From the NCBI RefSeq assembly GCF_032163395.1, contig NZ_CP119968.1, positions 2,692,001 through 2,756,000 of the forward strand: a DNA stretch of 64,000 bases. Direction: 5' to 3'. The DNA is from Gloeocapsopsis dulcis. Its GTDB lineage: Bacteria > Cyanobacteriota > Cyanobacteriia > Cyanobacteriales > Chroococcidiopsidaceae. Shown in pieces: positions 20,326 to 36,163 of this stretch; the first letter of the stretch is position 1, and every line of letters starts with the position of its first letter. A program made the translations under genes and the position numbers. Under the pieces are notes generated by a model. The model had not been told where the DNA came from, ran no database searches, and saw only the letters and a program-made list of their open reading frames with translations.

Positions 20326-21560
20326 TTGACACTCCTCGGGCTAAAGCCGCGAGGATTCTTCGTTCATAGACCCAACTTGCTCTGACAGGATTGCTCCAAT
20401 CAAAGTAGAGGTCGAATCTCCCGAAGCGTTCGGGTCTATGACCCAAGTTCCCACATGCCCTGTGGTACTCAAGGCTAATTTCAGGATGTTAAGAGCCGCA
20501 TTCCAGTCCCGATCCAAGATAAACCCGCACTGGCAAGCGTGAGTTCTTATGGATAGGGACTTTTTGATAAGAGTGCCGCAATTAGAACATTCTTGGCTTG
20601 TATAGGCAGGATTAACCGCAATAGTTATCTTGCCAAACTTAACTCCAAAATGCTCTAACCATTTCCTGAATTGATACCAACCCGCATCATTAATCGACTT
20701 AGCGAGACAGTGATTTTTAACTAAGTTCCGAATCCTCAAATCTTCGTAAGCGATCAGGTCGTTAGACCGACAAACGCAACGCGCCATTCTACAAGCGTGT
20801 TCTTCACGTTGCCTACTTATTTTGAGATGTACTCGCCCTAGTCGATTAATGGCTTTTCTCCGGTTGGCAGAGCCTTTCTTTTTCCGAGAAACACGACGCT
20901 GCTAGTAGTTCAGCCGTTTCTCACCCATTCGATAAAACTTAGGGTTAGGCTCGGTGTGACCGTTGGAATCAGTGTAGAACTCTTTGAGTCCCACATCTAA
21001 GCCAACCATCTTGCCTGTTAGTTCCATGTCTACCTTGTTCTTAGCATCCACTAAGAACTGTACATAGTAACCATCGGCACGGCGCACCACCCTAACCCGT
21101 TTTATCTGTTCTAATTGGTAGTAGTTTAAATCCCAGGTTCCTTTGAGTTTTAGTTTGCCAATCCCTTTCTTGTCCGTGAAAGTGATTTGTTTGCGAGTTT
21201 CGCAGAGCGACCAACCTGAAGTCTTGTACTCGAGTGAGCGACAATTTTTCTTGAACGTTGGGTATCCCTTCTTTCCTGAAACCGACTTCTTGCAATTGCT
21301 GTAGAACCGAGCAATCGCGCTAGATGCTCTTTCAACTGCAACTTGGCAAGCGTGAGAGTTCAAAGCTTTCACAAACGGGAATTCAGCTCTCAGCGCCGTA
21401 TTGTAGCGATACAACTCTTTTTGTCCTACCCCTCGGTTGTCCATCCAAAAACGGAGAACCTTGTTGCGTACAAATTGGGCTGTTCTTATCGCCTCATTGA
21501 TCTTTGCATATTGAGTTGTTTTTCCCTTAGCCTTGAACTCTAGGACTATCATTTGACGTG
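20326..21560 (-). mobile_element. IS200/IS605-type (IS1341-like) element, tnpB only
   Basis: A tnpB without tnpA, ending in a right-end hairpin CCTCGCGGC-TTTA-GCC-CGAGG (20334-20354, minus strand) typical of this group, with the likely end soon after at TGTCAAGAC. The left boundary, somewhere above 21552, is not determined. The element is inserted directly upstream of cimA. It is non-autonomous, lacking TnpA, and its tnpB is interrupted. Confidence 0.7.
20341..21552 (-). pseudogene. tnpB: IS605-family TnpB interrupted by a single amber codon
   Basis: The N-terminal 216 codons (21552 to 20905) and the C-terminal part (onward to 20341) are in the same frame, separated only by TAG at 20902-20904, so one point mutation, for instance CAG to TAG, explains the break. 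Together they form a normal-length TnpB of about 403 residues. The RuvC aspartate (MVGLDVGLKEF), glutamate (IAYEDLRI) and last aspartate (LDRDWNAALNIL) and the zinc ribbon (CSNCG..CQCG) are all intact. An internal ATG at 20787 could begin a C-terminal fragment, and suppression of the amber codon could in principle restore the protein. Confidence 0.88.
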
Positions 21561-31733: not shown

Positions 31734-31965
31734 GAGGCAGAGGAAAAACCATTGCTTAATGATTTTAGCGTTGCCTCTCGATTCGCGGTCAAGGAAAGTT
31801 AGACGGATCAGTCTTGCAAGAAAACCTACACTGAAAAACGTGGGATTAGATATCGACTCACAAATCTATTTTCTCTTGATGACTAAAACCGTGGGCTTTA
31901 ACCTCTTAGATTGAGTTCAGGAGAAGAGAAACGAGCCTAAACTTTGTCCTTTGAACCCTTTCAGA

Positions 31966-32544
31966 TTAAGCTTTGGGATATAGCCACTGCCGAAATAACT
32001 GCGTCAAGCGTGGCATGACTAAATAGGTGAGAAGGGCTACTACGAGTCCAGTTGTGATTAATTGGTGGAGTAATACAGGCAATCCGGACAGCGGCGAGAG
32101 TAGGCGACTGAGGATTGCGAGAGTGATAAACACTCCCAACCACGTTATCAATGCCATCTTGTAGCGAGGAGGCAGAGATTTCAGCGGTTTGTCAGACAGC
32201 GTAAACCACGTCTCCAGTCCAGTCAGGGTTTGAACAGCTTCAGGTTTTTCAATCAGCGGCTGCAATCGCTCAATCCATTCTCGCCGAATATCTGACTCCA
32301 GCCACGTTTTGAGATTGCTGTAGCGGTCAAATCGAACAATGGCAACATACTCAAGATGTTCGCGATCACGCGGTCGAATCACATTCACTCCTAAATGTCC
32401 TTTGAACTTACGGGCAGCTGTAGCGATGCCGTGAAACCATTCTTCGTAGCCCTGCTCCCGTCCTGGTCGGATAATATGGGAAATGATGGCCGTCACCTGA
32501 TCGCTTTCTGCATCCGTATCGAGGGTTAAAGGTTCGTTTAACAC
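31966..32544 (-). CDS. antibiotic-biosynthesis-monooxygenase (ABM) domain membrane protein
   Basis: About 192 residues from GTG at 32544 (VLNEPLTLDTDAESDQVTAIISHI). Residues about 15-110 form an ABM-type ferredoxin-like domain (RPGREQGYEEWFHGIATAARKF); two hydrophobic helices follow (about 133-150 and 157-178). Such ABM-plus-two-helix proteins are widespread and of unknown activity. The frame is open up to GTG 32613, but that part is residual quinone-reductase sequence, so the internal GTG preceded by GGA is preferred. It lies at the edge of the accessory patch. Confidence 0.75.
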   Translation of the reverse strand: MLNEPLTLDTDAESDQVTAIISHIIRPGREQGYEEWFHGIATAARKFKGHLGVNVIRPRDREHLEYVAIVRFDRYSNLKTWLESDIRREWIERLQPLIEKPEAVQTLTGLETWFTLSDKPLKSLPPRYKMALITWLGVFITLAILSRLLSPLSGLPVLLHQLITTGLVVALLTYLVMPRLTQLFRQWLYPKA

Positions 32545-32561
32545 AGAAATTTCCGTCCTTA

Positions 32562-32641
32562 CTAAACGACTTGCAGCACAATCTTGCCGCGTGTATGTCC
32601 CGTTTGAATTCACTCACGACCATGCGAACTGCCTTCATCAT
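32562..32641 (-). pseudogene. deletion scar of an NADPH:quinone reductase gene
   Basis: The first codons MMKAVRM (from about 32641) match the start of zinc-type quinone oxidoreductases, and GHTRGKIVLQVV followed by TAG (32600 to 32562) matches their exact C-terminal end. The two are out of frame and separated by about 20 bases, so roughly 300 internal codons have been lost. Too short to be functional. Confidence 0.75.
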
Positions 32642-32731
32642 CGTCATGATTATTCCTCATCCTCAGAAGATTCTCGTTCACGTTAAACGAATGAAAAAGT
32701 AGGATGGGCAGTGCCACCCTACCGATGAGTT

Positions 32732-33352
32732 CTACTGCTTCACGGCATAACTAGTCATCAAGTTTTGGTAATCAGGAATGTAACCCGCCAACAGACTACC
32801 CAAACCAGTGATATCGTTACGCCAATCACGATGCAGTTCGCACACTACACTGAACCAGTTGACTAGTTGAACTCCAGCACTAGCCATACGATTCCAAGCA
32901 GCGTCACGGCAAACTTCATTGAACGTGCCCGATGCGTCGGTGACGACGAACACATCATATCCAGCTTCGATCGCAGATAAAGCGCAAAATGCGACACAAA
33001 CATCCGTAACGATGCCAGCAATGATGAGTTGTTTGCGACCTGTCGCCTCAACTGCTTTGACGAAATCCTCGTTGTCCCAGGCATTAATTTGTCCAGGGCG
33101 AGGAATGTATGGCGCATCAGGAAACTTCTCTTTCAGTTCGGGCAGGATGGGTCCATTCGGACCCTGCTCAAAGCTGGTCGTTAAAACGGTAGGAAGATTG
33201 AAAAACTTGGCTGCGCTGGCAAGCGCTAGCACATTGTTTTTGAAGTCAGCGGCGGCAAAGTCACGCACCAGTGAAAACAGTCCAGTCTGATGATCAACCA
33301 GTAAAACCGCAGCATTATCTTTATCTAGACGATTGTATTTGAATATAGACAT
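32732..33352 (-). CDS. isochorismatase-family (YcaC-like) hydrolase
   Basis: 206 residues of the cysteine hydrolase superfamily. The triad is visible as Asp20 in LLVDHQTGLF, Lys in the region GRKQLIIAG and Cys in GIVTDVCVAFCAL (about 118). Overall sequence is of the YcaC type, whose physiological substrate is unknown. ATG at 33352. It lies in a patch of redox and detoxification genes, on the same strand as the GST gene upstream but separated by 177 bases. Base composition is richer in G+C than the surrounding chromosome. Confidence 0.87.
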   Translation of the reverse strand: MSIFKYNRLDKDNAAVLLVDHQTGLFSLVRDFAAADFKNNVLALASAAKFFNLPTVLTTSFEQGPNGPILPELKEKFPDAPYIPRPGQINAWDNEDFVKAVEATGRKQLIIAGIVTDVCVAFCALSAIEAGYDVFVVTDASGTFNEVCRDAAWNRMASAGVQLVNWFSVVCELHRDWRNDITGLGSLLAGYIPDYQNLMTSYAVKQ

Positions 33353-33529
33353 GGTAGTATTCTTAATTGAATATTGGTGGTTTGTTGCAGCCTGGAATCA
33401 GGAGTAAGAGAGCATCTGTCTCTAACCTCCTCTTTGTCGCGTTAGCGGAGACAAAGTCTGTGTTTGAAGTAGGATCCACTCGCTAATCCTCGGTTGGCTT
33501 TAGCCTTTTTCGCAGCTAATCAAATTCGT

Positions 33530-34150
33530 CTAGAGAGTAATACCTTGCGCCTGCATCGCTCGCTGCACGCTCTCATCGTCTGCCATCTGCATCATGAAGC
33601 GATGCAGGTTGGGGTAGTCGGTGAAGGGTTTGGGCAGAGATTTACCCCAACGACAAAAAACAAACAAATACGGGTCAAGAACGGTTCGGCGGTCTTCAAC
33701 CAGATACGTTCGATTTTCCATATGGTGGTCGAGTAGTTGAAAACACGCATCAATTTGTGTGTAAGCTGCTTCTCGAATAGCATGATACTGATGGGTATCA
33801 GCAATGTAGCGTTGAGGCAAAAAGTAGGGGTAGAAGGCAGGATGCACATCTCCTGTGAGGTAAGACATCCACTTGTGCATTTCGTATCGCGCTTCTGCTG
33901 TTGGGCTAGCACCTAATTGGTCATCGGGAAACTTTTCGGCAAGATAGAGCAATATTGCTTCTGCCTCGGTCAGCACCCGACCATCATCCTCAATTAAAGC
34001 GGGCACTTTTCCGGCTGGGTTCACGGCTAAGAATTCGGGTTCGCGGGTTTTGCCACGCTCCACTCGACCCAGTTCAAAGGGTTTACCAATCCATTCCAAA
34101 ACAATGTGAGGGGCAAGCGAACAGGCTCCGGGCATATAGAACAGCTTCAT
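33530..34150 (-). CDS. glutathione S-transferase
   Basis: 206 residues. N-terminal thioredoxin-like domain starts MKLFYMPGACSLAPHIVLEW, matching the bacterial beta-class GST signature around Ser11 and Cys10; the cis-Pro block is AGKVPALIEDDG and the SNAIL-like glutathione contact is LTEAEAILLYLAEKF. The C-terminal helical domain is complete. Beta-class enzymes conjugate or reduce with glutathione. ATG at 34150. Likely acquired with its neighbours, which are of the same detoxification type. Confidence 0.9.
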   Translation of the reverse strand: MKLFYMPGACSLAPHIVLEWIGKPFELGRVERGKTREPEFLAVNPAGKVPALIEDDGRVLTEAEAILLYLAEKFPDDQLGASPTAEARYEMHKWMSYLTGDVHPAFYPYFLPQRYIADTHQYHAIREAAYTQIDACFQLLDHHMENRTYLVEDRRTVLDPYLFVFCRWGKSLPKPFTDYPNLHRFMMQMADDESVQRAMQAQGITL

Positions 34151-34226
34151 AAAGTCTTCCTTGGGGGTGATCGCTTCAACGTACGGTCAAGAGGATGTCT
34201 GAATGCTCCTCAGACATCCTCCAAAT

Positions 34227-34592
34227 CTATGCCGCCATGTTAAACAACAACACTTCAGAATCGTTAGACGCGCCTTGCAGCGTGATTTGTGATTCTTGAG
34301 CAATGGCAGCGCCATCTCCAGCAGTGAGCATTTGGTCATTCAGATGCACCGCACCTCTCACCACTTGCAGCCAAGCGACTCGTTTGTCTGCTAAGGCATG
34401 ACTCACTGTTTCACCTTCCTGTAAGACCGCGGTATAAAGATTTACATCCTGGTGAATGGAGATCGATCCATCACGCCCATCACGGGAGCCAAGTAACCGC
34501 AATGTGCCGCGCTTTTCTTCCTCAGAGAATGTTTTCTGCTCGTAGCCTGGCTCAATCCCTTTTTGCTCTGGCAGAATCCAGATTTGAAGAAA
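34227..34592 (-). pseudogene. C-terminal half of a pirin (YhaK-type) gene
   Basis: Pirin similarity runs from about 34592 (FLQIWILPEQKGIEPGY, then EQKTFSEEEKRGTLRLLGS) to the stop at 34227 (AEVLLFNMAA-like end). A shorter frame starting at TTG 34502 exists but the true similarity continues upstream of it without a start codon until TAA at 34596-34598. The N-terminal metal-binding cupin (about 110 residues) is missing. The upstream end abuts the truncated azoreductase on the other strand, marking a deletion. Confidence 0.85.
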
Positions 34593-35113
34593 CTGTTACT
34601 TATCGTGATTTGGGACATCATCCAGTACCGCACGTTGATGAACAATGGATTGCTGCTGCCTACACCCCACTAGCGCAACGGACACCGGAGTTAATCTCTG
34701 CGCTGCAAAAGTCAGAAATTTTGGTAGATGAGTTTCTGGCAGCAGATACCTGTGTCTTCGGTATACCGATGTACAACTTTAGTGTGCCATCGACCTTCAA
34801 AGCCTACATTGATCAAGTGGTTCGGGTCGATCGCACGTTTGCTGTAGATGCAAACGGCTTTCGAGGATTGGCTGGGGGCAGAAAGATAATCGTGATTACG
34901 GCACGGGGCGGAAATTTTCGTCCTGGAACCCCGTTGGCTGCCTATGACCACCAGGAACCTTATTTGCGAACAGTGTTTGGCTTCATGGGTATCACGGATG
35001 TTGAATTCATTCACGCCGATCGCCTCAACCCAATCACCAGCGATGCAGCGACGCGATCGCAGTCTGTTGCAGAAGCACGCACAGCCATTCAAGAAGTTGT
35101 TTTGAGTAGGTAA
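34586..35113 (+). pseudogene. FMN-dependent NADH-azoreductase (AzoR) lacking its N-terminus
   Basis: From EETVTYRDLGHHPVPHV (34586 on) to the stop at 35113 the protein matches AzoR/AcpD: VFGIPMYNFSVPSTFKAYIDQVVR, TFAVDANGFRGLAGGRK and ARGGNF. The first about 37 residues of the family, which hold the SSPR..S FMN-phosphate loop, are missing. A frame open from ATG 34502 supplies 28 unrelated residues, but these are encoded by the antisense strand of pirin. It may be translated as a chimeric 203-residue protein, though FMN binding would be impaired. SDR gene starts eight bases downstream. Confidence 0.8.
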
Positions 35114-35121
35114 ATACAATC

Positions 35122-35862
35122 ATGACCGAACTAAATGGAAAAGTGGCTCTGGTTACAGGAGCCTCACGGGGTATTGGAGCAGCAACCGCTAAGCATCTAG
35201 CAGCCGCAGGTGCCAAGGTAGCGGTGAACTATGTCAAGAATGCTGACGCTGCCTATCAGGTTGTGCAAGCGATCGAGCAGGTAGGAGGAGTGGCGATTGC
35301 AATCGCTGCTGATGTTGCCGACCCTACTCAAGTCAAACAGCTATTTACAACCGTGACGGAGCAGTTTGGGACGCTGCATATTCTAGTGAATAATGCAGGC
35401 ACAGCTGAATCTGCACCGCTGAGTCAGATTGACGACGGGCATATTGAGCGACAGTTTGACCTAAATGTGCGCGGACTGATCTACGCCTGTCAGGAAGCAA
35501 GCCGTTGGTTCGAGGGTGAGGGTCGCATTATCAACCTCAGTTCGGTTGTGGCTGATGGTGTACCCGGAGGGGCAGTCTATGCCGCAACGAAGGCAGCGGT
35601 CAATGCCATTACCCGCAGTCTAGCTATCGAGCTGGGCGATCGCCAGATCGCGGTCAATGCTGTTTCTCCAGGTCCGGTTGACACAGACTTGGCTCAAACC
35701 GTGAACACCGCCAAGTCATTTCAACAAATGGTGTCTCGTACGCCTTTGGGACGTTTGGGTGTTCCCGATGATATTGCCCGGGCGATCGCGTTTCTGGCAC
35801 CTGATGATGCGGCATGGATTACCGGACAGATCATCGGAACAGACGGTGGCTTCCGCTTCTAG
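35122..35862 (+). CDS. short-chain dehydrogenase/reductase (3-oxoacyl-ACP-reductase-like)
   Basis: 246 residues. Classical SDR: NADP(H)-binding TGASRGIGAATAKHL at 13-27, NNAG at about 90, catalytic Ser and the YAATKAAVNA (Tyr-x3-Lys) site at about 153-157, then SPGPVDTDLA and the C-terminal GQIIGTDGGFRF. Resembles FabG but in this redox-gene context is more likely a quinone/aldehyde/ketone reductase. ATG at 35122, eight bases after the azoreductase remnant, with which it was probably an operon. Bases 35161-35220 contain 36 G+C in 60. Confidence 0.88.
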   Translation: MTELNGKVALVTGASRGIGAATAKHLAAAGAKVAVNYVKNADAAYQVVQAIEQVGGVAIAIAADVADPTQVKQLFTTVTEQFGTLHILVNNAGTAESAPLSQIDDGHIERQFDLNVRGLIYACQEASRWFEGEGRIINLSSVVADGVPGGAVYAATKAAVNAITRSLAIELGDRQIAVNAVSPGPVDTDLAQTVNTAKSFQQMVSRTPLGRLGVPDDIARAIAFLAPDDAAWITGQIIGTDGGFRF

Positions 35863-35906
35863 TTACAAACTTCAGTTCACACAACTCAAACAGCTAGGAA
35901 CTTACC

Positions 35907-35990
35907 ATGATTGGTTTCTACTATTCGCCCTCACCGAAACCTTGGAAGATCAGCATCATGCGGGAAGAGATCTTGTGGGGCAGAAATTAA
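35907..35990 (+). pseudogene. N-terminal remnant of a second glutathione S-transferase
   Basis: MIGFYYSPSPKPWKISIM followed by nine residues and a stop. This matches the first 18-20 residues of Nu/YfcG-type GSTs (M-I-x-F-Y-x-x-P-x-P-x-x-W-K-I-S-I-M), after which the similarity ends suddenly. It lies 44 bases after the SDR stop in the same direction and is the third truncated gene in this patch. Confidence 0.65.
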
Positions 35991-36163
35991 CACTTGCTGA
36001 AAACCCGTAACGACTTCAAGAATTGTCTTTAGCCTAGTTCTAGCGAATTTTGTGGAAAGGGTGAAAGGTTGACTGTGCACGAATTCAGTTCATCAACGCT
36101 TTCGACTTGAAGCACGGACATTGAACACTGACTATCTGCTAACCACAGATTAAATATTATCAT

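Follow-up and report, generated by a model that had tools for sequence, protein, structure and literature searches.

A probable rearrangement scar joining truncated pirin and azoreductase genes in a putatively acquired gene block of Gloeocapsopsis dulcis

Results

In a 64,000-nucleotide stretch of the Gloeocapsopsis dulcis genome (here, the window), two genes that have lost their 5' ends, one for a pirin on the minus strand and one for an azoreductase (AzoR) on the plus strand, meet head to head. We consider this locus, with a probability of roughly 0.75, to be a rearrangement scar within an acquired island, where illegitimate joining brought together two operons that relatives regulate separately. 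The first would be a cluster of pirin, glutathione S-transferase (GST), YcaC-type hydrolase, and ABM-like genes, of a type that frequently has a LysR regulator as its divergent partner. The second would be a cluster of AzoR, short-chain dehydrogenase (SDR), and GST-like genes, for which an AraC-type regulator is the divergent partner in the nearest relatives. The broken leading genes of both would have been joined at a junction with up to ca. 4 nucleotides of common sequence. The features of the locus are collected in Table 1.

Table 1. Features of the locus, in window coordinates.
Feature	Positions	Strand	Basis
Putatively acquired block, ca. 4.36 kb, flanked by uvrA and a histidine-kinase gene (approximate edges)	31796..36158		Flank comparison, five relatives
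Gene for ABM-like membrane protein of the pirin-type cluster	31966..32613	-	PF03992, E 0.0012, below its cut-off
Gene for YcaC-type cysteine hydrolase, intact	32732..33352	-	NF041461, 387 bits versus cut-off of 310
Intact gene for glutathione S-transferase, downstream of pirin	33530..34150	-	GST_N, GST_C
Pirin remnant, C-terminal domain only, first ca. 113 codons missing	34227..34592	-	Pfam, L153, 24 relatives
28-codon leader of the 203-residue ORF, antisense to pirin	34502..34585	+	ORF list, leader search
Junction, 7-nucleotide overlap of the homologies (GAAGAAA)	34586..34592		Codon-position agreement with relatives
AzoR remnant, ca. 34 to 41 N-terminal codons missing	34586..35113	+	Pfam, 80 AzoR loci, aligned relatives
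Short-chain dehydrogenase gene, intact, 8 bases past the AzoR stop	35122..35862	+	Pfam
Second GST-like gene, a stub with 22 matching codons ahead of a stop	35907..35990	+	Match in L061 to L063

Two truncated genes and their junction

The minus-strand frame at 34227-34595 matched the pirin C-terminal profile PF17954 over its full length (E 1.8e-28, positions 1 to 86 of 86), while the N-terminal cupin domain, PF02678, was absent from this frame and present in a full-length relative (locus L153) in the same Pfam comparison. Over their common part, the two pirins are 85% identical, and that of L153 is 113 codons longer upstream, close to the loss of about 110 codons that the original prediction had put forward. 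In bicupin pirins, the metal-bearing domain is the N-terminal one. Pirin 1J1L and YhhW 1TQ5 are both given as bicupins in PMC2684688, each with one of its two domains carrying metal.

On the plus strand, the AzoR core matched Flavodoxin_2 (PF02525) with E 1.3e-42; the match starts at profile position 17, or at 35 when the leader is removed. In an NCBIfam scan that covered the window, three azoreductase models also matched this ORF below their cut-offs. The best relative, from Iningainema tapete (L061), is 83% identical. The window gene lacks 41 codons compared with L061 and 34 compared with the 206-residue protein of L148, values that bracket the ca. 37 codons predicted to be lost. The N terminus is present in 80 of 80 AzoR loci (the best 80 of 225), the match starting at query residues 1 to 4 in each. 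Missing from the window protein are the first strand and the DSSPR loop, which in AzoR have a role in FMN-phosphate binding; the DSSPR motif is found in all four aligned relatives.

The pirin side of the junction was mapped against 24 relatives anchored at an exact HFLQ(I/V)W motif, 4 of the 28 tried having been left out for lack of it. From 34553 to 34592, the first and second codon positions match in most of these relatives (0.58 to 1.0), and beyond that point the agreement is chance-like, except for two bases at 34594-34595. Given that pirin agreement runs through 34592 and agreement with the three nearest AzoRs starts at 34586, the two homologies overlap by 7 nucleotides. Both limits coincide with those originally predicted, as does the head-to-head meeting of the two genes, and the 5' ends and upstream regions of both are gone; both regulators are absent. 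The GAAA at 34589-34592 is compatible with half of the pirin relatives and with two of the three nearest AzoRs. It suits joining at a short microhomology but is no proof of it, and so few shared bases may be due to chance. Only short, chance-like repeats were detected in and around the island, and a promoter scan gave 4 sites versus a mean of 5.0 in shuffled sequences. A literature search for junctions of this kind retrieved nothing specific.

The putatively acquired block

We compared a 19.5-kb stretch of the window with two congeners (G001 and G002) and three further members of the family. In all five relatives, the uvrA side (to ca. 31796) adjoins the histidine-kinase side (from ca. 36159 or 36206), with gaps between the flanks of 0.11 kb in G001 and G002, 0.21 kb in G014, and 0.94 kb in G004 and G010, although in G010 only parts of the histidine-kinase gene match. 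The block itself had no match in any of the five stretches compared. Since it is missing at this site from two congeners and three family members, it looks acquired. Its GC content is 0.46 to 0.55 versus 0.36 to 0.47 in the surroundings. As a whole, the block has the appearance of a horizontally acquired island, an insertion relative to close relatives.

On the pirin side of the block, the window GST has relatives with 86 to 90% identity downstream of pirin in L163, L167, L173, and L246, and the ABM-like gene has a 77% relative downstream of pirin in L154. On the AzoR side, the SDR has relatives with 62 to 63% identity in the AzoR clusters of L062 and L063, and 35907-35972, close to where the block ends on the right, corresponds to the start of the GST-like gene found downstream of AzoR (64% to L061 over 22 residues and 55% to L062; E 3e-6 from a search of 441 bases). 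This match breaks off after 22 residues; therefore, the AzoR-SDR piece is cut at both ends. Elsewhere in the window, at 20341-21552, two adjacent minus-strand ORFs resemble by eye parts of a TnpB-type (IS200/IS605-associated) gene.

Gene order in relatives

In order to describe the intact arrangement, we used 61 pirin loci, the best-scoring part of the matched places, with G153 and G254 contributing more than one place each. Four of them (L034, L154, L157, and L170) were dropped, their N terminus being split or missing or the upstream sequence shorter than 600 bases. The remaining 57 have an intact N terminus and at least 600 bases upstream (ca. 1.0 to 1.2 kb covered per locus). The pirin of L170 (G286) seems to break at the same codon as that of the window, but it is split over three frames and was set aside. 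The adjacent LysR gene there is split over two frames, a matter of sequencing errors or decay with no relation to the window.

A divergent LysR gene (assigned by PF00126 and PF03466) was present at 27 of the 57 pirin loci and at 21 of the 29 in the closer set, while the stretch covered showed none at the other 30 (8 closer). Inspection by eye of these 8 closer loci revealed a sensor-kinase-like gene, a transposase-like ORF, a response-regulator-like ORF, and a transporter-like gene on the pirin strand, each at one locus; one of the 8 has a pirin-strand gene with PF01243. Downstream, pirin heads a same-strand cluster with GST, YcaC-like hydrolases, and an ABM-like protein in L217 and L218 of G153, and parts of this cluster were found in L163, L159, L154, and L176. 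For AzoR, the three nearest loci (L061, L062, and L063) have a divergent AraC-type gene, likewise confirmed by Pfam, 112 bases upstream. No such gene was seen, over the stretches covered, at the other 77 of the best 80 of 225 loci, some of which have a short upstream stretch.

Origin of the junction

Two routes could have led from these clusters to the present locus. The clusters may once have stood side by side, in which case a single deletion of ca. 2.5 kb or more would have taken both regulators, or else two broken fragments may have been joined end to end. The balance tilts only slightly toward the deletion. No genome was found, among the loci inspected, to carry the two clusters side by side and oriented as one deletion would require. 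Because a divergent LysR gene was unseen at 30 of 57 pirin loci and the AraC-type gene was seen at 3 of 80 AzoR loci (best 80 of 225), we infer, rather than observe, that this lineage once had the regulators.

Joining of fragments of different origin, during or after acquisition and with no intact adjacent clusters ever having existed, is a variant of the scar reading that we regard as a serious, if less probable, possibility. The nearest relatives of the two halves belong to different organisms: those of pirin and GST come mostly from other families of the class, and those of AzoR and SDR from Iningainema, Hydrococcus, and one metagenome-assembled genome (MAG). Along the same lines, the window pirin falls within a 34-row clade (97/87) drawn mostly from other families, while the two other pirins of this genome cluster with pirins from the same genus and family, in a tree built on few columns and poorly supported around the window row; G006, one family member, also carries a pirin of the foreign type. 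The second cut of the AzoR-SDR piece, in the GST-like gene, and the lack of an inspected locus with both clusters in the window orientation also favor separate fragments. On the other hand, two fragments would have to land at one site, and the donors are judged from similarity within a limited sample, in which the SDR had no match at E ≤ 1e-85 in 388 class genomes other than its own. The pirin remnant had no match in viral contigs.

We also searched the genome itself for the missing parts. No ortholog of the LysR or AraC-type regulator was found in it, the best LysR match reaching 37% and the best AraC match, a single one at 50%, lying under the limit used; at the locus, no divergent LysR ORF precedes the window pirin. 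Front halves of pirin and AzoR occurred only within intact paralogs (pirin at C1:1071817-1072512 and C1:2564591-2565262; AzoR at C1:1263538-1264152 and C1:3542792-3543403), apart from one partial match (54%) to the pirin N-terminal cupin at G000:C3:286536-286724 (L279), in a 301-residue frame that perhaps encodes a different cupin protein. With no clear orphan front halves elsewhere, an origin by inversion or translocation, in which they would have been preserved, is unlikely.

The original prediction explained the same geometry in a simpler way, with pirin and AzoR as a directly divergent pair around a common promoter region, from which a short deletion took only the 5' ends and the spacer. 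The present head-to-head arrangement and the base-level junction would fit this, and the two genes do share a cluster in three genomes (G132, G210, and G270), where AzoR lies downstream of pirin on the same strand. In one of these (L195 of G270), a single strand carries pirin, GST, YcaC-like, AzoR, and ABM-like genes. Three of the matches (GST, AzoR, and ABM-like) each fall into two pieces, and this may be a further copy of the cluster that is decaying or contains errors. However, AzoR was divergent from pirin at 0 of 57 pirin loci, pirin appeared in 0 of 80 AzoR loci (best 80 of 225) over the stretches covered, and in the nearest relatives each gene faces its own regulator. Nor did an intact divergent pair turn up among 60 relatives, 388 class genomes, two families, genome contigs, and plasmids, a search in which the neighborhoods of selected loci were inspected rather than every match (only Kovacikia among the plasmid matches). 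The divergent pair therefore lacks support and appears improbable. The original prediction had itself named an intact relative with another gene order as evidence against it; such relatives exist, although the direct progenitor of the locus was not among them.

That the junction is an assembly artefact is very unlikely, as the assembly comprises just 3 contigs, the surroundings of the block are conserved, and no repeat of at least 14 nucleotides was found at the junction in the 4.7 kb scanned.

The 203-residue ORF

Across the junction, an ATG ORF at 34502-35113 stays open for 203 residues, with the leader in phase with the AzoR part. As predicted, its first 28 residues are antisense pirin sequence: when the leader was searched against all loci compared, the best matches outside the window were pirin genes in antisense (E values down to 1.7e-7), while matches at AzoR loci were at chance level (E above 4).

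Given the open, in-phase frame, one could imagine a working chimera whose first helix has been replaced by one encoded in antisense pirin DNA. The Pfam alignment places the leader on the first AzoR helix, for a gain of 6.6 bits in the Flavodoxin_2 score, and AlphaFold2 with a 29-row alignment places a helix at residues 6 to 27 (whole-model pLDDT of 88.7; block means of 49 for residues 1 to 10 and 82 to 86 for residues 11 to 30). Against this, the leader contributes 3.5 bits in a profile of 80 AzoRs (best 80 of 225), a value reached or exceeded by 183 of 1,000 shuffled leaders and 214 of 1,500 random open frames, whereas the N termini of four relatives, themselves included in that profile, add 51 to 70 bits. 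Antisense stretches of the pirins of 21 relatives, placed like the leader, add 1.4 to 5.4 bits to the AzoR score; thus, the window leader is nothing special, and by these scores its likeness to AzoR is within chance. Without the alignment, AlphaFold2 gave a helix at residues 13 to 31 with very low confidence and a mean pLDDT of 38.0, so structure prediction says little about the leader segment alone. With the first strand and DSSPR loop also missing, a functional chimera is hardly credible. The stronger version, gene birth from antisense coding DNA in which the junction made a new expressed chimeric flavoprotein with its first helix from the antisense pirin strand, is less credible still.

Selection on the remnants

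Both remnant frames are still open. The GST, YcaC, ABM-like, and SDR genes are also open frames, although they have lost the sequence found upstream of the leading gene in relatives. Relaxed selection was examined in both remnants through counts of synonymous and nonsynonymous changes per branch. For AzoR, with L062 as the outgroup, the counts (synonymous/nonsynonymous) were 46/26 on the window branch and 20/10 on the L061 branch; with a second outgroup, they were 15/8 on the window branch and 9/4 on the other. For pirin, four settings gave, with the window branch first, 8/7 and 29/11, 17/8 and 7/13, 9/7 and 10/7, and 6/11 and 7/7. There was no consistent relaxation on the window branch in either remnant. 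Together, the open frames and the lack of consistent relaxation suggest that the event is recent, or else that the data are too few to tell. Judging from the sequence, both remnants are probably dead: the loss of the N-terminal cupin should disable the pirin, and the loss of the first strand and DSSPR loop should do likewise for the AzoR.

Discussion

In Synechocystis sp. PCC 6803, the divergent LysR gene pirR is a reported repressor of pirAB (PMC5318462). Close relatives of the window cluster often share this layout of a pirin-type gene with a divergent LysR gene; unlike pirR-pirAB as presented there, the window has neither the regulator, nor the upstream region, nor the front half of the pirin. 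A similar comparison holds for the AzoR half, whose counterparts in Iningainema tapete (L061) and Hydrococcus sp. Prado102 (L062) belong to AraC-type/AzoR clusters with AzoRs 83% and 73% identical to that of the window. In L062, AzoR is followed by a GST-like gene and then by an SDR, while L061 has a GST-like gene downstream and no SDR match was seen. The window differs from both, its AzoR being truncated at the 5' end, the regulator absent, the SDR first in line, and the GST-like gene reduced to a stub.

Bacterial genomes contain gene remnants (pseudogenes) at places where a deletion or end joining has occurred, and the window resembles such cases in having two genes with lost 5' ends that meet at a few bases common to both. 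It departs from them only in that the fused frame stays open and gives a plausible-looking ORF. In this sense, the locus is an ordinary scar of genome rearrangement, which holds no surprise for a specialist in that field.

Its value is mainly a caution for annotation. A gene caller would report an intact-looking azoreductase of 203 residues, really a remnant with an antisense leader, next to a pirin fragment; the original warning about automatic annotation was well placed, as the leader search confirms that the predicted azoreductase begins in antisense pirin. Beyond this, and with an empty site in close relatives, the locus offers a clear example of what looks like an acquired island of stress genes that is without the regulators its genes have elsewhere.
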